From NCBI GenBank assembly GCA_949299135.1, contig CASFZG010000007.1, positions 1-64,000 on the forward strand: a stretch of DNA of 64,000 nucleotides, in the 5' to 3' direction. The translations under genes and the position numbers were made by a program. The stretch is from an uncultured Phascolarctobacterium sp. GTDB taxonomy: Bacteria; Bacillota; Negativicutes; Acidaminococcales; Acidaminococcaceae. The notes beneath the pieces were generated by a model. It was not told the origin of the DNA. It searched no databases and saw only the letters and a program-made list of their open reading frames with translations. This document shows, piece by piece, positions 1 through 54,337 of this stretch. Position 1 is the first letter of the stretch. Every line of letters starts with the position of its first letter.

Positions 1-1
1 C

Positions 2-1015
2 GGCGCTGTTTACAGCCCGGCTCTGACCGACTTCATCTACATGGTAAAGAACACTTCCAAAATGTTCATTACCGGCCCGGCAGTTGTTAAATCCGTTACT
101 GGCGAAGAAGTTACCCAGGAAGAACTCGGTGGCGCTATGACCCACAACCAGACTTCCGGTGTAGCTCACTTTGCTGCTGAAAACGACGAAGACTGCATCA
201 AACAAATCCGTTATCTGTTAAGCTTCCTCCCGTCCAACAACATGGAAGGCGCTCCGATTATTGAAACCGGCGACTCCCCGACCCGTACGGACGAAGCTCT
301 GAACACTTTGATTCCTGATAACTCCAACCATCCTTATGATATGAAAGATGTTATCAGAAGCATCGTTGATAACGGCGAATTCTATGAAAACCAGCAATAC
401 TACGCTCAGAACATCATTACCTGCTTCGCTCGTATGGATGGCCAGACCGTAGGTATTATTGCTAACCAGCCGAAAGTAATGGCAGGTTGCCTTGACATCA
501 ATGCATCTGACAAATCTTCCCGCTTCATTCGCTTCTGCGACGCTTTCAACATTCCTCTGTTGAACCTGGTTGACGTACCGGGCTTCCTGCCGGGCACCAA
601 CCAAGAATATGGCGGCATTATCCGTCACGGCGCTAAGATGCTCTATGCATACTCTGAAGCAACCGTTCCTAAAATCACTTTGATTACCCGTAAAGCTTAC
701 GGCGGTTCTTACCTCGCAATGTGCTCTCAGGAACTTGGTGCTGACCAGGTTATCGCTTGGCCGACTGCTGAAATCGCAGTTATGGGCCCTGCCGGTGCAG
801 CTAACATCATCTTCCGTAAAGATCCTGATGTTGAAGCTAAAACCGCTGAATACATTGACAACTTTGCAACCCCGTATCAGGCTGCAAAACGTGGCATGGT
901 TGATATCGTAATTCAACCGAAAGATTCCCGCCCGACCATCATCAATGCACTGCAGATGCTGGAATCCAAACGTGAAAGCCGTCCGGCTAAGAAACACGGT
1001 AACATTCCGCTCTAA
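2..1015 (+). CDS. mmdA: Methylmalonyl-CoA decarboxylase alpha subunit (carboxyltransferase), 5' truncated by window edge
   Basis: This is the carboxyltransferase subunit of the sodium-translocating methylmalonyl-CoA decarboxylase. It moves the carboxyl group of (S)-methylmalonyl-CoA to the biotin carrier, giving propionyl-CoA. The frame is open from base 2, so the start lies outside the window; the 337 codons seen are the C-terminal two thirds of a family usually near 510 residues. The crotonase-like carboxyltransferase fold shows in [33 protein letters not shown] and the oxyanion stretch [11 protein letters not shown]. The closely related glutaconyl-CoA decarboxylase alpha subunit is the main alternative; the neighbouring dicarboxylate carriers and CoA transferase favour methylmalonyl-CoA. 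It is followed after 22 bp by the delta-type subunit gene and is clearly in one operon with the genes down to 3296. Confidence 0.9.
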
Positions 1016-1037
1016 TGCATAGAAAGGGGAAATCGTA

Positions 1038-1340
1038 ATGGGATTTTTTGGATTATTTGGTAGCAGCAAGAAGAAAGAAGCTCCGAAAGCTGCTCCCGCT
1101 CCGGCTCCTGTAGCTGCAGCAGCTCCTGCAGTTCCTGCCGGTACTCCCCCCGAAGTAATTGCAGCTATCAGCGGTGCAATCGGCATGGTTATGAACGACG
1201 ATGAAATGATTGCAGCAATGGCAGCAGCTATCCAGCATGCTGGCGGCGGCGTAGCTGTAGTACGTATCAAAAAACCGAGTACGCTTTGGGCTCAGACTGG
1301 CCGCTTGTCTTTGATGAACAAAAGACAGGAATGCTATTAA
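1038..1340 (+). CDS. Decarboxylase delta/epsilon-type small subunit lacking a membrane anchor
   Basis: This 100-residue protein has a short basic N-terminus (GSSKKKEAPK), an Ala/Pro linker (about residues 18-36) and a C-terminal segment beginning PPEVIAAISGAIG and rich in Met and Ala, ending in a basic tail. That tail is typical of the delta (OadG/MmdD) and epsilon (MmdE) subunits, which tie the carboxyltransferase to the membrane beta subunit. Delta subunits normally start with one membrane helix; none is present here, so this is more like MmdE or an anchor-less MmdD. The missing helix may be supplied by the 41-residue peptide at 3171. The start ATG follows an AGGGGA ribosome site by 9 bp. 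I leave the symbol open because mmdD and mmdE both fit in part. Confidence 0.75.
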   Translation: MGFFGLFGSSKKKEAPKAAPAPAPVAAAAPAVPAGTPPEVIAAISGAIGMVMNDDEMIAAMAAAIQHAGGGVAVVRIKKPSTLWAQTGRLSLMNKRQECY

Positions 1341-1355
1341 TTTTTAGTTTTGACT

Positions 1356-1380
1356 GCGGCAGGTTCTCATTGCCTGCCGC
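1356..1380 (+). promoter_or_regulatory. Intercistronic hairpin between delta-type and biotin-carrier genes
   Basis: GCGGCAGG (1356-1363) pairs with CCTGCCGC (1373-1380) around a 9-nt loop. The bases that follow are A-rich rather than a T run, so this is not a normal intrinsic terminator. An mRNA stability or processing element that sets subunit ratios is the likelier role (inference). Confidence 0.55.
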
Positions 1381-1424
1381 ACGAAAATAAAAAATTTTTA
1401 AAAATTGAAATGGAGGAATTTCAA

Positions 1425-1844
1425 ATGAGAAAATTCAAAGTTAACGTTAATGGTGTAGCTTACACTGTTGAAGTTGCAGAAGAAGGCGTTGTAGCAGCTC
1501 CGGTTGCAGCAGCTCCGGCTCCTGCAGCAGCTCCCGCTCCGGCTCCGGTAGCAGCTCCTGCTCCGGCTCCCGCAGCAGCTCCGGCTCCCGCTCCGGCAGC
1601 AGCTCCTGCTCCGGCAGCAGTAGCAGCTGGTGACACCCCGCTTACCGCTCCGATGCCTGGTAAAGTAAGCAAAATCGTAGCTAAAGCTGGCGACGCTGTT
1701 AAAAAAGGCGACGTAGTTCTTATGCTCGAAGCTATGAAAATGCAGAACGAAATTGCTGCACCTGTTGACGGCACCGTTAAATCCATCAACGTAGACGTTA
1801 ACGAAAACGTAAAACCTGGCCAGATCATGGCAGTTATCGGCTAA
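1425..1844 (+). CDS. mmdC: Methylmalonyl-CoA decarboxylase gamma subunit, biotin carrier protein
   Basis: This 139-residue biotin carrier has three parts: an N-terminal beta segment (residues 1-20), a long Ala/Pro hinge (about 24-68) and a C-terminal biotinyl domain (about 70-139). Lys105 in the motif EAMKM is the biotinylation site. It accepts the carboxyl group from the alpha subunit and delivers it to the membrane beta subunit, where decarboxylation drives Na+ export. The ATG at 1425 is chosen because it follows GGAGG by 8 bp; an upstream in-frame extension has no ribosome site. The hinge is coded by many near-identical GCAGCTCC/GCTCCG units, so its length could vary between strains. The nearby hairpins at 1356 and 1873 isolate it within the operon. 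Confidence 0.93.
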   Translation: MRKFKVNVNGVAYTVEVAEEGVVAAPVAAAPAPAAAPAPAPVAAPAPAPAAAPAPAPAAAPAPAAVAAGDTPLTAPMPGKVSKIVAKAGDAVKKGDVVLMLEAMKMQNEIAAPVDGTVKSINVDVNENVKPGQIMAVIG

Positions 1845-1872
1845 TTTCCTTCAATTCTTCAAACATAATAGC

Positions 1873-1896
1873 GTGCCGGCAGTTAGCTACCGGCAC
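1873..1896 (+). promoter_or_regulatory. Intercistronic hairpin between biotin-carrier and beta-subunit genes
   Basis: GTGCCGG (1873-1879) pairs with CCGGCAC (1890-1896) around a 10-nt loop. It has no T run, so it is probably an RNA processing or stability hairpin rather than a terminator. Confidence 0.5.
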
Positions 1897-1946
1897 TGCT
1901 ATCAGATGAATTTATAGGAAAGCAATTGAATATTGGAGGTTTAAGA

Positions 1947-3107
1947 ATGGATTCTTTACTCGTACAATACCCTTATCTTGAAGAACTCCTGAAGGGTATT
2001 CTTGGTCTTCACTATACTCATATTATTATGTGGATCATCGGCGGCATCCTGATCTGGCTCGCAGTTAAATACGACTACGAACCTGCTCTGTTGCTTCCTA
2101 TCGGCTTCGGTGCTATCCTGGCTAACATTCCGCATTCTTCTGCAGTATCCACTGAACCGGGTGCTGAAGGTTTCTTGATCACCCTGTACAATGCAGGTAT
2201 CGCAAACGAACTGTTCCCTGTACTTATCTTCGTTGCTATCGGCGCAATGTGCGACTTCGCTCCGTTGATTCGCCGTCCGTCCGTAATGCTGTTCGCAGCA
2301 GCTGCACAGTTCGGTATTTTTGCTACCGCTATCGGCGCTACCTTCCTGGGCTTCTCCTTCCCGCATGCTTCCTCTATCGGTATCATCGGCGCAGCTGACG
2401 GCCCGACTACCATTTATGTAGCAAGCCGTTATGCAGTAGAACTGCTTGGACCTCTGTCCGTAGCTGCATACTGCTACATGTCTTTGGTACCAGTTATCCA
2501 ACCGCCTGTTATCAAAGCTGTTACCACTAAAAACGAACGTTCCATTCGCATGGGCTTCGAAAACGAAGAACCTGTATCCGACACCACTAAATTCTTGTTC
2601 CCGATCATGATCGTTATCGTAGCAGGCGTTGTATCTCCTCTGTCTGTTGCTCTTATCGGTGCTCTTATGTTCGGTAACGTTCTTAAAGAATCCGGTGTTG
2701 TTGACAACCTGTCCAACTGCGCTCAGAACGAACTGTCCAACCTGGTAACCCTCGTACTTGGTATTACCATCGGCGGCACCATGACTGCTGAACGTTTCCT
2801 GAACTTCCAGGTACTTCTCATCATGGCTCTCGGCGCTGTTGCATTCGTATTCGATACCGTTGGTGGCGTAATCTTCGCTAAACTGCTCAACATGTTCAGT
2901 GCTAAGAAGATCAACCCGATGATCGGTGCTTGCGGCATTTCCGCATTCCCGATGTCCGGCCGTGTAATCGCTAAAATGGCTTTGAAAGAAGACCCGACTA
3001 ACTTCATCATCCAACATGCTATCGGCGTAAACGTTGCTGGTCAGGTTGCATCCGTAGTAGCAGGTGGTCTGGTTCTTGCTATGATTCCTGCTCTGGAAAA
3101 AATGTAA
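1947..3107 (+). CDS. mmdB: Methylmalonyl-CoA decarboxylase beta subunit, sodium-pumping membrane protein
   Basis: This 386-residue polytopic membrane protein of the OadB/MmdB/GcdB family decarboxylates carboxybiotin and couples it to outward Na+ transport. The family signature GIIGAADGPT contains the conserved ion-coupling Asp (Asp151 here), and the second inverted half carries GACGISAFPMSGR. Hydrophobic helices cover most of the length. The ATG at 1947 is preceded by GGAGG at a normal distance; an upstream TTG (1926) in frame has none. With the alpha and gamma subunits it forms the energy-conserving core of succinate fermentation. Codon use is strongly biased (few synonymous codons, runs of GTA, CGT and CTG), as expected for a very abundant protein. 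Confidence 0.93.
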   Translation: MDSLLVQYPYLEELLKGILGLHYTHIIMWIIGGILIWLAVKYDYEPALLLPIGFGAILANIPHSSAVSTEPGAEGFLITLYNAGIANELFPVLIFVAIGAMCDFAPLIRRPSVMLFAAAAQFGIFATAIGATFLGFSFPHASSIGIIGAADGPTTIYVASRYAVELLGPLSVAAYCYMSLVPVIQPPVIKAVTTKNERSIRMGFENEEPVSDTTKFLFPIMIVIVAGVVSPLSVALIGALMFGNVLKESGVVDNLSNCAQNELSNLVTLVLGITIGGTMTAERFLNFQVLLIMALGAVAFVFDTVGGVIFAKLLNMFSAKKINPMIGACGISAFPMSGRVIAKMALKEDPTNFIIQHAIGVNVAGQVASVVAGGLVLAMIPALEKM

Positions 3108-3170
3108 TCTGTAACTTGTAACTTTACTTATTAGCGTGCTTTCCACTGGAAATTTTTTGGAGGTGTAAAA

Positions 3171-3296
3171 ATGGGAGCAACTGAAAAAGCTGTTATTATG
3201 ATGGCTGTAGCTCTGCCGACCATGTTTATCGTTATTGGACTTTTCGTTGGTTTAACGAAATTGCTCCATAAATCTTTCCCGGCAGAAGAAGATTAA
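3171..3296 (+). CDS. 41-residue single-helix membrane peptide, candidate detached delta-subunit anchor
   Basis: This small gene has a strong ribosome site (GGAGGTG 8 bp before ATG) and the same codon style as its neighbours. The peptide starts MGATEKAVIMM, has one membrane helix (about residues 8-28, AVALPTMFIVIGLFVGLTKL) and ends in a short charged tail (LLHKSFPAEED). This resembles the N-terminal anchor of OadG/MmdD subunits, whose soluble tail is coded separately at 1038. Its position directly after the beta gene fits an accessory subunit of the complex. The function is inferred from size, topology and context; no catalytic motif is present. Confidence 0.7.
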   Translation: MGATEKAVIMMAVALPTMFIVIGLFVGLTKLLHKSFPAEED

Positions 3297-3353
3297 TTTA
3301 AAACCTGTGACTGAAGGTTAAATCAGTTATTAACTAATTTATAAGCGAAAGCA

Positions 3354-3416
3354 CCGGGTAGGGGAGACCTTACCCGGCGCCGGAGCTTAAAAGCCGTCAA
3401 GTAAATACTTAACGGC
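3354..3416 (+). promoter_or_regulatory. Two successive hairpins between decarboxylase operon and first carrier gene
   Basis: Hairpin one pairs CCGGGTA (3354-3360) with TACCCGG (3371-3377). Hairpin two pairs GCCGTCAAGT with ACTTAACGGC (3393-3416, one mismatch) and is followed by a T-rich stretch at 3421-3430. The second may be a leaky terminator separating the decarboxylase operon from the carriers. Confidence 0.45.
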
Positions 3417-3470
3417 ATTATTATGTTTTTAGCTCTTTTGGGCTAATTTATGAAGATTGGAGTGACGAAA

Positions 3471-4817
3471 TTGGATATTTCACTTCCTGCATTAATGTCC
3501 ATCCTCGCATTAGTTATTCTTGTAGGTATTTCCTGCGTGAATGAGGATCTTAACGTAGGCTTCCTTGGTATTGCATTCGGCATTATCGTAGGCGGCATCT
3601 TCGGCGATACGACGGCAGCAAAAATTATGAATGCCTTCCCGCTGAGCCTGTTTATGATTTTGGTTGGTGTAACCTTCCTTTTTGGTATGGCACAGACCAA
3701 CGGCACCATGGAAAAACTCACTGCTTATTCCATCCGTGTCTGCAAAGGTAACACTGCTTTAATTCCTATCATTATCTTTTTACTTTCCGACTTCTTGACT
3801 ACTATCGGACCTGGCAACATTGCAGGCTGCGCTTTGATGGCCCCTGTTGCTATGGCAATTGCAGGCAAAGTTAGAATGCCTGCATTCCTGATGACCCTGC
3901 TTGTTGTAGGTGCCTGCAACGCGGCTGCATTCTCTCCGTTTGCACCGACCGGCATCATCTCCAACGGCATCATCGCTAAAGTAGCTCCTGAACTCGGTAT
4001 CCCGGCTACTGACCTTGACGCACTTGCATGGATGGTATACTTCAAATCCACCATTGCTCAGGGCTTCGTAACCGTAGTAGGCTTCCTGGTAATGGGCGGT
4101 GCTAAATGGCTGAAAGAACAGAAAGGTGCTTCTCTGGATATCGACGAACTGGCTCCGAAACCGGAACCGTTCAACGCTGCACAGAGCACCACTCTTGCTA
4201 TCGTAGCTATTCTGGTTCTTTTGGTAGTTGTTCCTGGCCTGCCTGGTATTAAAGGTACCCTGCCGAAAATGCTTACCAATATGCTTTCTAACGTAGGATC
4301 TATTTCCTTCGTACTTTCTATTGTTCTTATGCTCACCGGTTATGGTGACTCCAAGGCTGCTGTTAAAGTAATGCCCTGGTCCGTTATCATGATGGTTTGC
4401 GGTGTATCCGTATTGATCGACGTTATGGATAAATCCGGTGGTCTTAACTTCCTTGTACAGATTATGTCTTCTGTAGCAGGCCCGACCACTATCTGCTTCT
4501 GGGCAGCCTTTGTTCCGGCAGTTCTGTCTGCATACTCCAGCTCCTCTGGCGTAATCATGCCGATGTTCCTGCCGATGACTCCTGGTTTGGTAGAATTGAC
4601 TGGTGGCGATGCTATCTCCATCATCTCTGCTATCAACGTAGGTTCCCACCTGGTAGATACTTCTCCGCTTTCCACTTTGGGCGCTCTGTGTATTGCAGCT
4701 GCTCCTGAATATGAAGATAAAGGCGTTCTGTTCCGTAAACTTTTGATTTGGGGTCTTTCCATGTCCATCGTTTCCGGTATCGTATGCTTTGTATTCTTCG
4801 GTGTGCTTGGTCTGTAA
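3471..4817 (+). CDS. Dicarboxylate carrier, MatC/SLC13-like permease, tandem copy 1
   Basis: This is a 448-residue multi-helix permease of the ArsB/NhaD superfamily. Its N-terminal part is like the dicarboxylate carrier MatC N-terminal family, with conserved stretches such as SCVNEDLNVGFLGIAFG and TIGPGNIAGCALMAPV. The start is read as TTG at 3471 (GGAGTG 6 bp upstream), because both downstream copies begin MDISLPAL at exactly this point; an in-frame ATG at 3450 would add seven unmatched residues. The neighbours (methylmalonyl-CoA decarboxylase and CoA transferase) suggest a C4-dicarboxylate such as succinate as substrate (inference). This copy is the most divergent of the three, for example IFLLSDFLTT where the others have IYVL-TFVTT. 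Confidence 0.8.
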   Translation: MDISLPALMSILALVILVGISCVNEDLNVGFLGIAFGIIVGGIFGDTTAAKIMNAFPLSLFMILVGVTFLFGMAQTNGTMEKLTAYSIRVCKGNTALIPIIIFLLSDFLTTIGPGNIAGCALMAPVAMAIAGKVRMPAFLMTLLVVGACNAAAFSPFAPTGIISNGIIAKVAPELGIPATDLDALAWMVYFKSTIAQGFVTVVGFLVMGGAKWLKEQKGASLDIDELAPKPEPFNAAQSTTLAIVAILVLLVVVPGLPGIKGTLPKMLTNMLSNVGSISFVLSIVLMLTGYGDSKAAVKVMPWSVIMMVCGVSVLIDVMDKSGGLNFLVQIMSSVAGPTTICFWAAFVPAVLSAYSSSSGVIMPMFLPMTPGLVELTGGDAISIISAINVGSHLVDTSPLSTLGALCIAAAPEYEDKGVLFRKLLIWGLSMSIVSGIVCFVFFGVLGL

Positions 4818-4949
4818 AAAGTACAAGAACTAATCGGCTATTTTCGAAACAATCTTTAAATAGTCCTAAATACGAATGGTATTATCGCAAAGTGAAATCA
4901 TCCGATTTCAAGCCCCAGCTATTTATCACAAATAGGAGGGACCAAACAA

Positions 4950-6296
4950 ATGGATATTTCACTTCCTGCATTAATGTCAATTCTTGCATTAGTTATTCTG
5001 GTAGGTATTTCCTGCGTTAATGAAGATCTCAACGTAGGTTTCCTCGGTATCGCATTCGGTATTATTGTCGGCGGTATTTTCTCTGACATTACCGCTGCAA
5101 AAATTATGAACGCTTTCCCGCTGAGCCTGTTCATGATTCTGGTAGGCGTAACTTTCCTTTTTGGTATGGCGCAGACCAACGGCACCATGGAAAAGCTGAC
5201 TGCTTATTCCGTACGTGCCTGCAAAGGTAACACCGCACTTGTTCCTTTGATCATTTATGTGCTGACTACCTTTGTTACCACCATCGGCCCTGGCAACATT
5301 GCCGGCTGCGCTCTGATGGCTCCGGTTTCTATGGCTATTGCTTCTAAAGTAAAAATGCCTGCATTCCTGATGACCCTGCTTGTTGTAGGTGCTGCTAACG
5401 GTGCTGCATTCTCTCCGTTTGCTCCTACCGGCATTATCTCCAACGGCATCATCGCTAAATGCGCTCCGGAACTTGGTATTCCTGCTGATTACCTCTCCAC
5501 TCTGGCTTGGAAAATTCACTTCAACTCCACTATTGCACAAGGTTTCGTTAACGTTGGCGGCTTCTTTGTAATGGGTGGTTTGAAATGGATGCGTGAACAG
5601 CGTGGCGCTGCTCTCAACATCGACGAACTGGCTCCGAAACCGGAACCGTTCAACGCTGCTCAGAAAACCACTTTGCTCATGGTAGCAATCCTGATTCTCT
5701 TAGTAGTAGTTCCTGGCCTGCCTGGTATGAAAGGTATGTTCCCGAAACCGATGCTGAACATGCTCTCTAACGTAGGTTCTGTTTCCTTCGTTCTTTCTAT
5801 CGTACTTATGCTCACCGGTTATGGTGATTCCAAAGCTGCTGTTAAAGTAATGCCTTGGGGCGTTATCATGATGGTTTGCGGCGTATCCGTACTTATCGAC
5901 GTAATGGATAAAGCTGGCGGCCTGAACTTCCTCGTTGAAATCATGGCTTCCGTAGCTGGCCCGACCACCATCTGCTTCTGGACCGCATTTGTACCGGCTG
6001 TAATTTCCGCTTACTCCTCCAGCTCTGGTGTAGTAATGCCGATGTTCCTGCCGATGACCCCTGGTCTGGTAGAATTGACCGGCGGCGACCCGATTGCTAT
6101 TATTTCCGCAATCGACGTTGGCTCCCACCTGGTAGATACTTCCCCGCTGTCCACTCTGGGCGCGCTGTGCATTGCATCTGCCGGTGAAGAAGAAGACAAA
6201 GGCGTTCTGTTCCGTAAACTTTTGATTTGGGGCCTCTCCATGTCCATCGTTTCCGGTATCGTTTGCTACGTATTCTTCGGCATCCTTGGCTTCTAA
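4950..6296 (+). CDS. Dicarboxylate carrier, MatC/SLC13-like permease, tandem copy 2
   Basis: The second copy of the carrier is also 448 residues and starts at ATG 4950 after TAGGAGGG. Most of its length is identical to copy 3, including the cytoplasmic loop LAPKPEPFNAAQKTT and the C-terminus GIVCYVFFG. The proposed role is succinate or other C4-dicarboxylate uptake. It sits 132 bp after copy 1 with its own leader, which resembles the leader of copy 3, so each copy may be transcribed or translated separately. No terminator-quality hairpin was seen between copies 1 and 2. Confidence 0.8.
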   Translation: MDISLPALMSILALVILVGISCVNEDLNVGFLGIAFGIIVGGIFSDITAAKIMNAFPLSLFMILVGVTFLFGMAQTNGTMEKLTAYSVRACKGNTALVPLIIYVLTTFVTTIGPGNIAGCALMAPVSMAIASKVKMPAFLMTLLVVGAANGAAFSPFAPTGIISNGIIAKCAPELGIPADYLSTLAWKIHFNSTIAQGFVNVGGFFVMGGLKWMREQRGAALNIDELAPKPEPFNAAQKTTLLMVAILILLVVVPGLPGMKGMFPKPMLNMLSNVGSVSFVLSIVLMLTGYGDSKAAVKVMPWGVIMMVCGVSVLIDVMDKAGGLNFLVEIMASVAGPTTICFWTAFVPAVISAYSSSSGVVMPMFLPMTPGLVELTGGDPIAIISAIDVGSHLVDTSPLSTLGALCIASAGEEEDKGVLFRKLLIWGLSMSIVSGIVCYVFFGILGF

Positions 6297-6412
6297 GAAT
6301 AAATACCGGTTATCCTGAATAACTGAAAACTTAATAGAGTGGTATATTTTGCATAGTGCAAATGTCCGATTTCCGAATTCCGTCTTATTCTATCAATAGG
6401 AGGAAACAAATT

Positions 6413-7759
6413 ATGGATATTTCACTTCCTGCATTAGTGTCCATTCTCGCGCTGGTAATCCTCGTAGGTATTTCCTGCGTAAATGAAGACTTGAACGTAG
6501 GCTTCCTCGGTATCGCATTCGGTATTATCGTTGGCGGTATCTTCTCCGATATCTCCGCAGCTAAAATTATGAACGCTTTCCCGCTGAGCCTGTTCATGAT
6601 CCTGGTCGGCGTAACCTTCCTTTTTGGTATGGCGCAGACCAACGGCACCATGGAAAAGCTGACCGCTTATTCCGTACGTGCCTGCAAAGGTAACACCGCA
6701 CTTGTTCCTTTGATTATTTATGTACTTTGCACTTTCGTTACCACCATCGGCCCTGGCAACATCGCAGGCTGCGCATTGATGGCACCTGTTTCCATGGCTA
6801 TCGCATCCAAAGTTAAAATGCCGGCATTCCTGATGACCCTGTTAGTTGTAGGTGCCTGCAACGGTGCAGCATTCTCTCCGTTTGCTCCTACCGGCATCAT
6901 CTCCAACGGCTTAATCGCTAAAATGGCAGGCGAACTCGGCCTTGCTCCGGATTATCTGAACACTTTGGCATGGAAAATTCATTTCAACTCCGAACTTGCA
7001 CAAGGCTTCGTTAACATCGGCGGCTTCTTTGTAATGGGCGGTTTGAAATGGTTGCGCGAACAGCGCGGCGCTGCTCTGGATATCGACGAACTGGCTCCGA
7101 AACCGGAACCGTTCAACGCTGCACAGAAAACCACTCTGTTGCTCGTATTCATCCTTATCCTCTTAGTAGTAGTTCCTGGCCTGCCTGGTATGAAAGGCGT
7201 ATTCCCGAAAGCTGTTACCAACATGCTCTCCAACGTAGGTTCTATCTCCTTCGTTCTTTCTATCGTACTTATGCTCACCGGTTATGGCGACTCCAAAGCT
7301 GCTGTTAAAGTAATGCCTTGGTCCGTTATCATGATGGTTTGCGGCGTATCCGTACTTATCGACGTAATGGATAAAGCAGGCGGCCTGAACTTCCTCGTAG
7401 AAGTTATGGCTTCCGTAGCTGGTCCGACTACCATCTGCTTCTGGACTGCATTTGTACCGGCTGTAATTTCTGCTTACTCCTCCAGCTCTGGTGTAGTAAT
7501 GCCGATGTTCCTGCCGATGACCCCTGGTCTGGTAGAATTGACCGGCGGCGATCCTGTAGGTATTATTTCCGCTATCGACGTTGGCTCTCACCTGGTAGAT
7601 ACATCCCCGCTGTCCACTTTGGGCGCACTGTGCATTGCATCTGCCGGTGAAGAAGAAGACAAAGGCGTTCTGTTCCGTAAACTTTTGATTTGGGGTCTTT
7701 CCATGTCGATCGTTTCCGGTATCGTTTGCTACGTATTCTTCGGCCTGCTTGGCTTCTAA
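6413..7759 (+). CDS. Dicarboxylate carrier, MatC/SLC13-like permease, tandem copy 3
   Basis: The third copy is again 448 residues from ATG 6413, which follows AGGAGG by 8 bp. An in-frame ATG at 6356 would add 19 residues (MQMSDFRIP...) absent from the other copies and is rejected. Differences from copy 2 cluster in a short window after SNGLIAK (MAGELGLAPDYLNTLAW) and in scattered conservative changes, which could tune substrate affinity. The following hairpin at 7789 probably ends the carrier transcript. Confidence 0.8.
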   Translation: MDISLPALVSILALVILVGISCVNEDLNVGFLGIAFGIIVGGIFSDISAAKIMNAFPLSLFMILVGVTFLFGMAQTNGTMEKLTAYSVRACKGNTALVPLIIYVLCTFVTTIGPGNIAGCALMAPVSMAIASKVKMPAFLMTLLVVGACNGAAFSPFAPTGIISNGLIAKMAGELGLAPDYLNTLAWKIHFNSELAQGFVNIGGFFVMGGLKWLREQRGAALDIDELAPKPEPFNAAQKTTLLLVFILILLVVVPGLPGMKGVFPKAVTNMLSNVGSISFVLSIVLMLTGYGDSKAAVKVMPWSVIMMVCGVSVLIDVMDKAGGLNFLVEVMASVAGPTTICFWTAFVPAVISAYSSSSGVVMPMFLPMTPGLVELTGGDPVGIISAIDVGSHLVDTSPLSTLGALCIASAGEEEDKGVLFRKLLIWGLSMSIVSGIVCYVFFGLLGF

Positions 7760-7788
7760 TTTAATTAGAACTGAGTTTTCGGATTTTT

Positions 7789-7813
7789 GCAGGTACGGTA
7801 TATCCGTACCTGC
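7789..7813 (+). terminator. Perfect hairpin after carrier copy 3
   Basis: GCAGGTACGG (7789-7798) pairs perfectly with CCGTACCTGC (7804-7813) around a 5-nt loop. The following stretch (ACTTTAATTAATAA) is only moderately T-rich, so termination may be partial. Confidence 0.55.
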
Positions 7814-7855
7814 ACTTTAATTAATAACTGTTAACGTAAAATTCACGTTACCGGT

Positions 7856-7884
7856 TTGCATTTTTGATGTTTTTTTGCTAAAAT
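7856..7884 (+). promoter_or_regulatory. Sigma-70-type promoter for the CoA transferase gene
   Basis: TTGCAT (7856-7861) and TAAAAT (7879-7884) are separated by exactly 17 bp. A start near 7891 would give a leader of about 120 nt before the gene. Confidence 0.55.
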
Positions 7885-8014
7885 TAATTTTGTAATATTT
7901 GATCTGTGCGGCTCTCACAGAATAAATATTGTTTGGCTGATGGGCAACGACTAAGGAGAAATCTGGATTTGTTGCTTGAATCAGAGAGTTTTGACAAACA
8001 GGAGGAAAATGATA

Positions 8015-9196
8015 ATGAAACCGTTGGAAAATGTAGTTGTTCTGGACCTCACTCGTGTATTGTCCGGCCCTTATGCTGCTATGATGCTTGCCGACATGGG
8101 TGCAAACGTAATTCACATCGAGCAGCCGAACGTAGGCGACGACAGCCGTGCTTACGGACCTTTTATCGGGAAAGAAAGCGCGTATTTCATGAGCTTGAAC
8201 CGTAACAAACGTTCCATGACCATGAACTTTAAGTCTGATGAAGCTAAAGCCGTTTTTAAAGAAATGGTTAAAAAAGCTGACGTTGTTGTCGAAAACTTTA
8301 AACCCGGTACCATGAAAAAATTCGGCCTTGATTATTCCGTACTGAAAGAAATCAACCCGAAAATTATTTACGCATCCTGCTCCGGCTTCGGCCAGACCGG
8401 CCCTTACACCATGAAACCTGCTTATGACGTAGTTGTACAGGCTATGGGCGGCATTATGAGCATCACCGGCCCGGATAAAGATACCTTCTGCCGTGTAGGC
8501 GCTTCCGTAGGCGATATCATCGCAGGTATCTTCCTTGCAACCGGTATCACCAGCGCTCTTTATAAACGCGAAGTAAGCGGCATCGGCCAGGAAATCGACG
8601 TATCCATGCTTGACTGCCAGGTAGCTATCCTTGAAAACGCAGTAAGCCGTTATTTCGTAAACGGAGAAAACCCGGTTCCTCTCGGAAACCGTCATCCTTC
8701 CATCACTCCGTTCGAATCCTTCACTGCAAGCGATGGCCTTGTAATTGTTGGCGCAGGCAACGACAGACTTTGGAAGAAGCTCTGTGATTTGATTAACAAA
8801 CCGGAACTCCTTGAAGATCCGCGCTTCCTTACCAATGCTGACAGAACCAACAACGAACCTGCACTGAAAGAAATTCTGGACGCAGTATTCGTAACCGATA
8901 CCATTGAACACTGGATTGAAAAACTGGAAGCAGCTGCAATTCCGTGCGCACCTATCAACACCATTGATAAGGTTGTAACCGACCCGCAGGTTAACTTCCG
9001 TGAAATGATTGTCGAAGTTGAACATCCGACTGCCGGCAAGATGAAAATCCCCGGTGTGCCCATTAAATTCTCCGAAACTCCGTGTGCCGTTGAAAAACCG
9101 GCTCCGATTCTCGGTCAGCACACTGATGAAGTGCTGAAAGAATTTGGCTTTGACGACGCTAAAATTGCTGAACTGCACGAACATGCAGCAATTTAA
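8015..9196 (+). CDS. Class III (CaiB/BaiF) CoA transferase, probable succinate activation
   Basis: This 393-residue family III CoA transferase moves CoA between an acyl-CoA donor and a free acid. The N-terminus VVVLDLTRVLSGPYAAMMLADMGANVIHIE is the family's CoA-binding signature. The catalytic Asp that forms the mixed anhydride is Asp167 in ASVGDIIAG, aligned by eye with Asp169 of formyl-CoA transferase. The start is ATG 8015, 9 bp after GGAGG; the ATG at 8009 is too close to that site. Placed after the carriers, it most likely makes succinyl-CoA from succinate using propionyl-CoA, closing the propionate cycle without ATP. Substrate choice cannot be read from sequence alone; other short dicarboxylic or fatty acids remain possible. 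Confidence 0.8.
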   Translation: MKPLENVVVLDLTRVLSGPYAAMMLADMGANVIHIEQPNVGDDSRAYGPFIGKESAYFMSLNRNKRSMTMNFKSDEAKAVFKEMVKKADVVVENFKPGTMKKFGLDYSVLKEINPKIIYASCSGFGQTGPYTMKPAYDVVVQAMGGIMSITGPDKDTFCRVGASVGDIIAGIFLATGITSALYKREVSGIGQEIDVSMLDCQVAILENAVSRYFVNGENPVPLGNRHPSITPFESFTASDGLVIVGAGNDRLWKKLCDLINKPELLEDPRFLTNADRTNNEPALKEILDAVFVTDTIEHWIEKLEAAAIPCAPINTIDKVVTDPQVNFREMIVEVEHPTAGKMKIPGVPIKFSETPCAVEKPAPILGQHTDEVLKEFGFDDAKIAELHEHAAI

Positions 9197-9235
9197 TTTC
9201 TCAATCAATCCAACTTAAAATTTTATTGATATACA

Positions 9236-9264
9236 GGATGGGAACTTGTTTCCCATCCTTTTTT
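9236..9264 (+). terminator. Intrinsic terminator after CoA transferase
   Basis: GGATGGGAA (9236-9244) pairs with TTCCCATCC (9250-9258), followed by six T. Confidence 0.9.
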
Positions 9265-9312
9265 GCTGTATAATAGTAGCGTTGAGTATATTTAATTTTA
9301 GGAGGCTGTTTG

Positions 9313-10026
9313 ATGAGCTTAGCTGTTGATACAACCAAACGCAATAAAAAATATGTTATTACTTACACCGTTGTAGGTATTGCATGTTTTGTTATGTTTA
9401 TCGTTTCCATTTTACGTTATGTATATCTTAACGTGCTGGAACCCGTGCCTATTTTCTTTTACGCAATGCTGGTATGGATTTTGCTGCTGCGCTGCAAACC
9501 GACTTATGACGTCAGCGTAGAGCGCAAATATTTAAAAATTGTCAAGCACGATATCTGGGGCAAAACCAAGGTTTTTGAAATCCCTTACCGTGAAATTGCC
9601 GCTATTTTCAGCTATCAGCCCAAGCTGATGCGTACCGTTAAGTTCCGCTATTCTTACAGATTGAACAGTGCGCTTGATGCGCGTACTTTGTGGACGCTGG
9701 CATGGCGCAGAAGTTTTGACGACGGCAGCGAAGCCAATGTACGCATTTATTTTAAAGCTTCCAAAGAAGTTATGGACGCTTTGGCTGAAAAAATGCCGAA
9801 CCGCGTTAATGTGCCTGAAGAACTGGCTGATTTTAACATGCTGGTTAAAGAGGGCGTAATTGTTAATAACGAAAGAAAATTGAAAGAAGCCGAAGCCGAA
9901 ATTCTGGATAAGAGCGTAGAACAGATTGAAGCTGAAGCAAAAATTGCCGGGGAAATGGTTGCCGAGGCAGAGGCTAAAGAAGACGCAGCCGAAGCTAAAA
10001 AAGCCGAAAAGAAACAAGAGGTGTGA
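9313..10026 (+). CDS. Uncharacterised two-helix membrane protein with charged C-terminal tail
   Basis: I do not recognise this 237-residue protein with confidence. Residues about 14-33 and 42-58 form two membrane helices. A middle part (about 60-150) with alternating beta-type stretches (SVERKYLKIV, VFEIPYREIAAIF) resembles a bacterial PH-like domain. The last 60 residues are a Glu/Ala/Lys-rich coiled coil ending KKAEKKQEV. ATG 9313 follows AGGAGG by 7 bp. It lies directly before a zinc-ribbon gene (3-bp gap), so the two are probably co-transcribed and may act together at the membrane. Confidence 0.6.
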   Translation: MSLAVDTTKRNKKYVITYTVVGIACFVMFIVSILRYVYLNVLEPVPIFFYAMLVWILLLRCKPTYDVSVERKYLKIVKHDIWGKTKVFEIPYREIAAIFSYQPKLMRTVKFRYSYRLNSALDARTLWTLAWRRSFDDGSEANVRIYFKASKEVMDALAEKMPNRVNVPEELADFNMLVKEGVIVNNERKLKEAEAEILDKSVEQIEAEAKIAGEMVAEAEAKEDAAEAKKAEKKQEV

Positions 10027-10029
10027 CGG

Positions 10030-10470
10030 ATGTATTGCAGATTTTGTGGACAAGAGCTGCCGGACGATTCCGCATTTTGCAGTAAGTGCGGCAAAGCTGT
10101 ACAGCATGAAGGTGCGGAAGCTGCACCGGTAAAAACGGAACCCGTAAAACCGCCTGCGCCGCCGAAACCGGCCGTTGAACACTGCCGCATGGAGCTGGTG
10201 GAAATGGACAGCCCGTGGTCGCTGTTTGGCAATACCCGCAACAGATTTGAGGTTATAAATGATAAGGGCGAGGTAATTTACCAGTCTGATAAATTTAAGG
10301 TAAGCGGTTTCAGCTATGACGGGCCGGAGGAAGTAAGTAAAAAATACCGTGACCTGGTGGAAAAAGCGGTTTTGACTTTGGCCGTTGACGGCTGGAAGAA
10401 GCTGCCCGGTTACCGCCGCCGCTGGTTTGAACTGGATTTTGAAAGAAAAATAAAAGATAAAGAAGATTGA
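10030..10470 (+). CDS. Zinc-ribbon protein of unknown function
   Basis: This 146-residue protein opens with a zinc ribbon (residues 1-22): CRFC and CSKC form the metal site. A Pro/Ala-rich linker follows (about 36-50), then a domain of about 95 residues starting near CRMELVEMD. N-terminal double-zinc-ribbon modules like this are common on small regulatory or membrane-associated proteins in Firmicutes, but no specific role can be assigned. The start is three bases after the stop of the membrane protein gene, within the same transcript, which ends at the terminator 10479-10509. Confidence 0.6.
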   Translation: MYCRFCGQELPDDSAFCSKCGKAVQHEGAEAAPVKTEPVKPPAPPKPAVEHCRMELVEMDSPWSLFGNTRNRFEVINDKGEVIYQSDKFKVSGFSYDGPEEVSKKYRDLVEKAVLTLAVDGWKKLPGYRRRWFELDFERKIKDKED

Positions 10471-10478
10471 TTTTAACG

Positions 10479-10509
10479 CTGCCTGCGCAAAAACGCGGGC
10501 AGTTTTTAT
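10479..10509 (+). terminator. Intrinsic terminator after zinc-ribbon gene
   Basis: CTGCCTGCG pairs with CGCGGGCAG (one T-G wobble) around an A-rich loop and is followed by TTTTTATT. Confidence 0.85.
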
Positions 10510-10662
10510 TATATTAAGCTTTTTTGTGAAATTTTTTGCAGAATTTTAGCAATATATACACAGAAGCCGAAAAATTTGATATAATAAATTGGAGTATCTG
10601 TAAACAGGCTGCAAAGTTTTGTTGATACTTGCGACGCTGATTTTTGAAAGGGTGATTATTTA

Positions 10663-11355
10663 TTGAGCCACAACAAGATGATGCTTTTACCGGCCGACGA
10701 CAGGCCGCGCGAGAAGCTGATTGAACATGGCCCGGATATATTAAGCAATTCGGAATTATTGGCGATTTTAATCAGGACGGGTACGACGGAGCGTTCGGCG
10801 CTTGATATTGCACGTGAGCTGACGGATAACGGCGGTTTGTACAGCAATATCGCGCAGGCGCGCAGCGTGGCCGACCTATCTAAAATAAAAGGGCTTGGCC
10901 CGGCAAAAGCGGCGACTATTTTAGCGGCCGTGGAGCTGGGCAGGCGTGTTGCCGGTGCTGACCCGCAGAAGAAAGTGAAGCTGTCATCACCGGAGGCTTG
11001 CGTAAATTATTTAATGCCGCGTATGCGTTATGAGCAGCAGGAAAAGTTCTTGGTACTGCTTTTGGACAGCAAGAACCAGCTGCTTAAATGCCAGCAGGTT
11101 TCGGAAGGTACATTGAACGCATCGGTGGTGCACCCGCGCGAAGTGTTTGCCCCGGCGATGCTGCATCGTGCGGCGTGCGTGCTGGCGGCGCATAACCACC
11201 CTTCGGGTGACCCGGCGCCGAGCATTGAGGACCGCAAGCTGACGCAGGCGCTAGAAGCAACCGGCACGGTAATGGGTATTCCGCTTCTGGACCATATCAT
11301 TATCGGTGACGGCAGGTATTTCAGCTTTAGAGAAAATGGGTATTTGGATGAATGA
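10663..11355 (+). CDS. radC: RadC-family JAB1/MPN-domain protein
   Basis: This 230-residue protein has an N-terminal helix-hairpin-helix part (LSKIKGLGPAKAATIL) and a C-terminal JAMM metalloprotease-like domain. The metal motif is complete: AAHNHPSGDPAPSIED supplies both His and the Asp, with the upstream Glu in SEGTLNASVVHPRE. The molecular role is not settled for the family; a direct part in DNA repair is doubtful. The likely start is TTG 10663, about 9 bp after an AAGGGTG site; ATG at 10678 is the alternative. It lies 10 bp before mreB, the usual radC-mreBCD order of Firmicutes. A TATAAT at 10580-10585 may be the promoter -10. Confidence 0.88.
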   Translation: MSHNKMMLLPADDRPREKLIEHGPDILSNSELLAILIRTGTTERSALDIARELTDNGGLYSNIAQARSVADLSKIKGLGPAKAATILAAVELGRRVAGADPQKKVKLSSPEACVNYLMPRMRYEQQEKFLVLLLDSKNQLLKCQQVSEGTLNASVVHPREVFAPAMLHRAACVLAAHNHPSGDPAPSIEDRKLTQALEATGTVMGIPLLDHIIIGDGRYFSFRENGYLDE

Positions 11356-23551: not shown

Positions 23552-23574
23552 AATAAGCGTCAATTTTAAACAAC

Positions 23575-23797
23575 TTTTGCTATGAAAAAGAGAGTAGGCA
23601 GCGCCTGCGACTTAGAGAGCAGGGCCACGGCTGAAAGCCCCGTGATACAGGTTTTGCCGAAGTTCACTTTGGAGCATCCGTTTTGAAATTAAGTAGGGAC
23701 GGCGTTTGCCGCGTTAAGGCGTTATGAGGTACAAAACAGGGTGGTACCGCGGAAGACATTGCAGCTTTCGCCCCTTTGATGGGGCGGAGGCTTTTTT
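23575..23797 (+). promoter_or_regulatory. T-box riboswitch for tRNA-Phe
   Basis: The leader has the AGAGAG kink-turn element of stem I, a likely UUC specifier codon (23663-23665) in GAAGTTCACTTTGGAG, the T-box sequence AGGGTGGTACCGCGG (23738-23752) and a 12-bp terminator stem (23763-23792) with a T run. Uncharged tRNA-Phe would pair with the UUC specifier and stabilise the antiterminator. Confidence 0.93.
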
Positions 23798-54089: not shown

Positions 54090-54337
54090 ATAATTTGATA
54101 TTTTATCAGTAATGCGAAGGAAAAGGCGTTTGCGCAGGCCTTACAGAAAAAGCTGCCGCGGCTGAGAGTAGCTTGGTACGGTAAACAGCCAGACCACCTT
54201 CAAACTATGCCCCGAAATTACAGTAGGCGGCATCGTATACCGGCGTTAACGGTTAACTAAGAGGGCTGCTATGCAGCCAATCAGGGTGGAACCGCGGATT
54301 ACTCCGTCCCTTTGCGAGGGATGGAGTTTTTATTTTT
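54090..54337 (+). promoter_or_regulatory. T-box riboswitch for tRNA-Thr
   Basis: A GAGAGTAG kink-turn element, a likely ACC specifier (54193-54195, in AGACCACCTTC), the T-box sequence AGGGTGGAACCGCGG (54283-54297) and a 10-bp terminator stem (54301-54327) with a T run make up the leader. Low charged tRNA-Thr would allow thrS transcription. Confidence 0.93.

Follow-up and report, generated by a model that had tools for sequence, protein, structure and literature searches.

Why should an uncultured Phascolarctobacterium sp. keep three permease genes in tandem beside the genes of a methylmalonyl-CoA decarboxylase? Succinate in the gut affects the host and serves other microbes as food, and Phascolarctobacterium converts it to propionate. 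The stretch that we analysed (the window) is the forward strand, 64,000 nt, of contig C7 (CASFZG010000007.1) of a 1.87-Mb genome, and the array that it carries is bounded upstream by genes of a Na+-pump methylmalonyl-CoA decarboxylase and downstream by a class III CoA-transferase gene. The answer that we favour, with moderate confidence, is that these MatC/CitMHS-type carriers import succinate, or a close dicarboxylate, for a succinate-to-propionate operon, that copies 2 and 3 have undergone gene conversion with one block spared, and that copy 1 has become specialised.

Arrangement, Family and Predicted Fold of the Permeases

The three permeases lie on the + strand and comprise 448 amino acids each; an earlier reading made from the letters and their open reading frames (ORFs) had described them as tandem and identical in length (the sequence-only reading). 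Copy 1 (3471..4817; ORF and Pfam) is counted from a TTG at 3471, copy 2 occupies 4950..6296 (ORF, Pfam and alignment) and copy 3 occupies 6413..7759, starting at ATG 6413, with a longer GTG ORF from 6356. Copy 1 is the most divergent, again as that reading had it: its protein is 86.2% identical to copy 2 and 84.6% to copy 3, against 93.8% between copies 2 and 3, and the corresponding DNA identities are 81.8%, 81.7% and 89.5%. An assembly artefact in the window is unlikely; the copies differ at 10-18% of bases, and two related genomes, ET69 and BRZ, carry the same triplet.

All three copies matched PF07158 MatC_N (E 5.8e-29 to 2.4e-30; 101.5, 104.8 and 106 bits against a cut-off of 23) and PF03600 CitMHS (52.2-61.8 bits against 31.9). 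An AlphaFold model of copy 2 (pLDDT 83.1, pTM 0.80) best matched SLC13/DASS carriers, the top match being NaDC3-succinate 8uve_B (VIA Z 31.0, 425 residues, rmsd 3.2, 13% identity; Foldseek E 1.7e-8). High structural scores were obtained for ArsB and TRAP membrane domains too, as expected if ArsB, TRAP and SLC13/DASS domains form one superfamily, which we take to be the case. At the sequence level, a Pfam scan of the copies gave no PF00939 match at E 0.001, the best hit of a PDB profile search had an E of 0.062, and a single-protein search for a solved permease relative returned none at E 1. The SNT motif, two of which we take to be the signature of the SLC13/DASS family, is absent from the three window copies, and the letters SNT occur somewhere in 3 of 42 family rows; in the weak profile alignment (E 0.062), the SNT of VcINDY aligns with G115-N116-I117. 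The DcuA/DcuB family (PF03605) had no match in the window's own genome in a search that matched its E. coli control, and was not among the Pfam matches of the copies. A shared fold, here a predicted one, demonstrates no function. Family and predicted fold, together with the association with the decarboxylase operon seen in further genomes, nevertheless bear out the earlier assignment to dicarboxylate-type carriers, and these proteins may be elevators that couple transport to Na+ or H+.

Recurrence of the Array

The complete triplet is present in the window, ET69 (L002) and BRZ (L003). The middle copy of A94 (L001) is frameshifted (L001 1947-3285), being either a broken gene or an assembly chimera, the array of O95 (L007/L030) is divided over contig ends, and a sixth, fragmented genome of the genus (G016) yielded a distant paralogue alone. 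The array is common to this Phascolarctobacterium-like genus and retained there. Thirty loci were found by their permease, several of them too short to judge neighbours; mmdB is visible in 14, and at least two permeases stand behind it in 11 of these, with one permease each in L006 and L025 and the end of the sequence falling inside the first permease in L028. The L006 permease at 9518-10861 has an in-frame stop. Thirteen of the 30 loci have a class III CoA-transferase like the window's close to the permease, seven of them being among the 14 with mmdB, and loci of Accumulibacter and Propionivibrio combine this enzyme with a permease and have no mmd gene in the stretch examined.

The permease tree, like the set of 29 relatives used below, omits L018, L019, L022, L028, L029, L030, the partial first copy of L004 and the broken copy 2 of A94. 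In it, the Sporomusa-type first copies form a deep clade of their own (5 rows, 100/100), the two L020 copies are sister to each other and those of Phascolarctobacterium form a group. Judging from this topology, tandem expansion seems to have occurred more than once, a pattern that conversion can imitate. A fourth permease paralogue, 66% identical, lies on contig C21 of the window's genome and may branch either among the three copies or outside them; the 13 array rows as a clade gave p 0.348 in the approximately unbiased (AU) test. No paper among those listed by our literature search, to which subscription papers were mostly closed, announces this permease triplet.

Copies 2 and 3

DNA trees of three segments of the gene (nt 1-465, 466-600 and 601-1344) conflict with one another. 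A copy-2 clade is rejected for nt 1-465 (AU p 0.002), and for nt 601-1344 both a copy-2 clade (p 0.009) and a copy-3 clade (p 0.002) are rejected, whereas for nt 466-600 both clades are recovered, that of copy 3 at 100/99 and that of copy 2 at an unsupported 52/80. Copies 2 and 3 of BRZ share an identical tract of 471 nt, possibly because the assembly of this metagenome bin collapsed there, and we therefore repeated the AU tests with the BRZ rows and O95 copy 2 left out, which gave p 0.007 (nt 1-465) and 0.036 (601-1344) for copy 2 and p 0.011 (601-1344) for copy 3. Shared runs of variable sites were longer than in shuffles for B2/B3, W2/B3 and W3/B2 (W, window copies), each with p 0.0005, the floor of 2000 shuffles. 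The conflict among segment trees indicates gene conversion, or recombination like it, between copies 2 and 3, and by the measure of these alignments the two copies of the window, ET69 and BRZ have been homogenised except within one block.

This copy-specific block spans codons 156-200 of copy 2 (5415..5549, + strand) and holds in genomes with an intact copy 2; A94, whose copy 2 is broken, is an exception. Orthologue identity exceeds paralogue identity of copies 2 and 3 most strongly in a 45-codon stretch within codons 151-205 (about 0.93 versus 0.79), a maximum above all 20,000 codon permutations (BRZ included); the sign was reversed in 46% of the 404 such stretches. In the copy 2 AlphaFold model, the block follows directly on the SPFAPTG break and takes in the last part of helix 159-171, a loop and the first part of helix 179-217. 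From the comparison with VcINDY, we presume that this region belongs to the transport domain, so that the block would adjoin the presumed substrate-site region and may contact the substrate.

Copy 1

At columns conserved to at least 90%, comparison with the 29 relatives gives nine fixed changes for copy 1, three for copy 2 and four for copy 3, some of which are shared. Each of the five copy-1 orthologues carries the radical changes K188M, H190Y and N192K, which are absent from the four copies 2, the four copies 3 and the 29 relatives compared; the broken middle copy of A94 has them. The original residues K188, H190 and N192 are kept in 28, 29 and 29 of the 29 other members, K188 being R in one relative. 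G151, near the SPFAPTG motif, is lost in copy 1 alone among the three copies, and one distant relative has A at the same site. Three pairs of copy-1 orthologues gave dN/dS values of 0.07-0.10, which points to strong purifying selection and rules out pseudogene decay of this copy.

Because copy 1 has lost the conserved K188, H190 and N192 and yet is under purifying selection, with its TTG kept in all five orthologues, dosage alone is a poor account of the array, and a different affinity or substrate fits better. Copy 1 is thus probably a specialised carrier, with a different affinity, substrate or coupling, rather than a weak spare. The sequence-only reading had offered selection for uptake capacity or for different affinities; the latter is now favoured, given that copy-specific residues are kept across species despite conversion elsewhere, and uptake capacity is less favoured. 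Copy 1 may also be the less expressed, as that reading had suggested.

The Succinate-to-Propionate Operon

On contig C25 of the window's genome lie, in order, genes for a succinate CoA-transferase, a mutase, a B12-binding subunit and MeaB, an epimerase-like gene named by a glyoxalase-type match and its place, and the first part of mmdA. The succinate CoA-transferase exceeds the cut-offs of TIGR03458 (715.5 bits versus 658.7) and NF053853 (702.2 versus 500). In strain ET69, a single contig runs from the end of the mutase gene through the class III CoA-transferase and is 95% identical to C25 over 3.4 kb; because ET69 has the corresponding genes on one contig, C25 and C7 most likely adjoin. The gene set of the methylmalonyl-CoA route from succinate to propionate (succinate CoA-transferase, mutase, epimerase and Na+ decarboxylase) is accordingly encoded together, across the C25/C7 break and with the order taken from ET69. 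As the operon contains these four activities, succinate is the likeliest cargo of the permeases, a judgement from gene context, in which nothing points to fumarate or malate. Earlier work cited in the available part of PMC11494908 describes P. faecium and P. succinatutens as being without fumarate reductase and dependent on external succinate.

The window opens within mmdA, encoding the methylmalonyl-CoA decarboxylase alpha subunit (1..1015, +; PF01039 E 1.8e-133), whose 5' end is lost at the contig start: the TIGR01117 match begins at model position 181, and the frame is open from base 1 to an ATG at 41. On the same strand follow a small delta/epsilon-like decarboxylase subunit (1038..1340), named by place and look, with a comparable ORF in the same position in L002, L003 and L007; mmdC, the biotin carrier subunit (1425..1844; PF00364), whose start at MRKF is taken from the ORF and which scores below the cut-off of NF047903 MmDecMmdC (111.4 bits versus 200); and mmdB, the carboxybiotin decarboxylase Na+-pump subunit (1926..3107; PF03977 E 5.7e-144; TIGR01109 over cut-off). 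A small ORF of 41 amino acids (3171..3296, +), hydrophobic by eye and conserved in relatives at the DNA level, lies between mmdB and copy 1. The neighbour that had been called a propionate-forming enzyme is therefore present as the mmd genes at 1-3107, although strictly the enzyme forms propionyl-CoA.

Put together, the three carriers would take up succinate or a close dicarboxylate, CoA transfer would convert succinate to succinyl-CoA, the mutase and epimerase would yield methylmalonyl-CoA, Na+-pumping decarboxylation would give propionyl-CoA, and CoA exchange would release propionate. Meanwhile, gene conversion would keep copies 2 and 3 alike over most of their length, and the block by the presumed transport site would keep the copies distinct.

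Other parts of the genome hold related genes. A second module on contig C30 (L069, G000:C30:6000-16020) comprises a succinate CoA-transferase over two cut-offs, a mutase and an MmgE/PrpD protein, then genes resembling the B12-binding, epimerase and mmdA-start genes of C25, while C21 (L065, G000:C21:14000-23921) has an mmdA-like end, named by likeness, a small subunit and the fourth permease. Both contigs break within mmdA and may adjoin, and the substrate of this second module could be another dicarboxylate. A third cluster (L068, G000:C13:4000-16000) has a LysR-like regulator and a CoA-transferase-like gene, both named by look, a mutase and an MmgE/PrpD protein; a mutase adjoining MmgE/PrpD twice in one genome seems unusual.

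Leaders and Flanking Genes

Copy 1 is preceded by a structured leader of three hairpins (3330..3470, +). The RNA fold of 3330-3475 has a z of -6.2, none of 200 shuffles folding equally well, and 67 of the final 80 bases are invariant across five genomes. In an alignment of five sequences, two-sided changes occur in 3 of 37 pairs, with a covariation term of +1.96, which is unfavourable. The sequence of the first hairpin varies widely between species. The leaders of copies 2 (4818..4949, +) and 3 (6297..6412, +) had been described as related, and indeed none of 1000 mononucleotide shuffles reached their alignment score; by the same kind of shuffle, the copy 1 leader shows no likeness to that of copy 3 (p 0.68) and only a marginal one to that of copy 2 (p 0.035). 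The start of copy 1 had been placed at the TTG. This codon is kept in all five orthologues, the window's included, but an in-frame ATG at 3450, giving a product of 455 amino acids, is likewise present in all five genomes compared, again including the window. We prefer TTG 3471 as the probable start, because GGAG lies 8 bases upstream and a protein begun there has the usual start of the family.

A hairpin of 11 pairs after copy 3 (7788..7814, +) is a likely terminator; the fold of 7775-7825 has a z of -6.0 and the stem is kept in five genomes, while terminator-like sites in the region are no commoner than in shuffles (5 versus 6.9). A weak promoter-like site (7855..7884, +) precedes the CoA-transferase gene; the region has seven sites of this kind, and shuffles give 10.4. 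The roughly 100 bases before that gene (7900-8014) hardly vary among five genomes of the genus, less than the DNA ahead of them does, and the leader gave no alignment with the leaders of five loci from other genera. No known RNA element near the genes reached the Rfam gathering threshold, the three sub-threshold matches in 3050-9400 all being far under cut-off.

The class III CoA-transferase itself is CaiB-type (8015..9196, +; PF02515 E 2.5e-132). It falls under the cut-offs of all seven NCBIfam models that it matched, and reaches 374.3 of 750, 371.5 of 522 and 347 of 700 bits for the named types SUGCT, YfdE and Mct; the nearest solved structures are SUGCT 9br6/9br7 and YfdE 4hl6. Downstream, 9310-10026 encodes a 238-amino-acid protein with no Pfam or NCBIfam match, and similar ORFs follow the permeases or the CoA-transferase in many of the 30 loci. 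Two T-box leaders lie further along the window (23573-23778 and 54103-54314).

Discussion

The array resembles several known systems in part. MatC of Rhizobium has been used as a malonate importer, and its model is reported to resemble VcINDY (available part of PMC12303837). The window copies share the MatC_N domain with MatC of Rhizobium trifolii, and the window model in turn resembles SLC13 carriers. However, rhizobial plasmid relatives are 27-29% identical, among the best 20 of 118 records (MatC itself possibly not among them), and the window context is succinate/methylmalonyl-CoA rather than matA/matB. With SLC13/DASS carriers such as VcINDY and NaDC3, the array shares the predicted fold of copy 2 (Z up to 31.0) and a putative divalent carboxylate cargo, but neither a significant sequence match (best profile E 0.062) nor SNT. 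The succinate operon of P. faecium JCM 30894, the closest published case, shares its pathway genes with the operon described here, and the locus number of a transporter comes immediately after that of mmdB (RS04470/RS04475, Table A2), but that transporter is of the SLC13/DASS type where the window has three MatC-type permeases; the text of the same source gives RS03075 as the neighbour, at odds with its locus numbers. Two of the P. faecium SLC13/DASS carriers had much larger TPM (transcripts per million) in co-culture with a succinate producer, and their uptake role was proposed from expression (all from the available part of PMC7568257). In Sporomusa malonica, S. acidovorans and Anaerospora (L011, L009 and L012), mmdA, mmdC and mmdB are followed by tandem permeases of this family, but in two copies, the first of which belongs to the separate deep clade, so this pair is not the same duplication as the window triplet. 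The carrier family, the pathway and the gene clustering are ordinary; less so are the repeated occurrence of tandem carriers in this position, the segmental conversion that spares one block, and the alteration of one copy at residues that are otherwise nearly invariant.

Several points weigh against the reading that we favour. The five copy-1 orthologues share descent, and their changes count as one event. For nt 1-465, the AU test does not reject a copy-3 clade (p 0.138; p 0.35 in the reduced set), and other copy pairs, among them the window's W2/W3 (p 0.20), are not exceptional in their longest shared run. The codon permutation applied to the block disregards the tract nature of conversion, and the 466-600 partition was picked after seeing the data. 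In the broken copy 2 of A94, the block is nearest to copy 1 (84% versus 72-77% for copies 2 and 3) and the rest is mosaic; it has copy-1 letters at 188-192, and unless that bin is chimeric the block is not copy-specific there. The block may be an unconverted remnant rather than a selected segment. Elsewhere in the genome there are three PF00939 (DASS) matches, so succinate uptake need not rely on the array. The C25-C7 order, though most likely, is borrowed from ET69, and the cargo is putative, read from gene context, with malonate or methylmalonate possible given the use of MatC as a malonate importer (available part of PMC12303837).

The simplest competing account, which we consider unlikely, is pure dosage: three equivalent succinate carriers would serve flux, and their differences would be neutral drift. 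Tandem permeases do recur at this locus in several lineages, and copies 2 and 3, 94% identical, are held alike by conversion. Drift is hard to square with three fixed radical changes in copy 1 at sites kept in 28-29 of 29 relatives under so low a dN/dS (0.07-0.10), with copy-specific residues that persist in four or five intact copies of each kind, or with the different leader and start codon of copy 1. We are similarly doubtful that the array imports another acid, such as malonate, methylmalonate, glutarate or the like, activated by the class III CoA-transferase. Malonate import by MatC (as described in PMC12303837, available part) fits such a role, as does the operon's own succinate CoA-transferase, which would leave the class III enzyme to serve a different acid; that enzyme lies near the permease in about as many loci (13 of 30) as mmdB (14 of 30) and accompanies it in Accumulibacter and Propionivibrio loci with no mmd gene in the stretch examined. 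Yet its best-scoring named relatives (succinate-glutarate, succinyl-CoA:mesaconate, SUGCT) use succinate too, with the oxalate enzyme YfdE scoring equally, and only 7 of the 14 mmdB loci have it, so that in some the permeases manage without the enzyme.

That copy 1 alone is an exchanger, of succinate for propionate, or an acid exporter, with the other copies as importers, seems to us distinctly improbable. It draws on the loss of K188, H190, N192 and G151, near the SPFAPTG motif, in copy 1 alone among the three copies, but none of the carriers of this fold considered here is an exchanger of that kind, and a place for these four residues at substrate or ion sites is conjecture. A bolder version, to which we give only a small chance, would divide roles within one operon: copy 1 would have changed coupling (for example succinate/propionate exchange) or take a different acid, copies 2 and 3 would be importers of different affinity, conversion would homogenise their bodies, and selection would protect a specificity segment of about 50 codons.

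On the reading that we favour, import of succinate or a close dicarboxylate by diversified copies, the operon position that an SLC13 carrier holds in P. faecium is taken in this lineage by another carrier family, expanded in tandem, and the array offers candidate specificity residues that are open to direct testing. Should the division of roles prove true, the array would amount to a natural domain-swap experiment.

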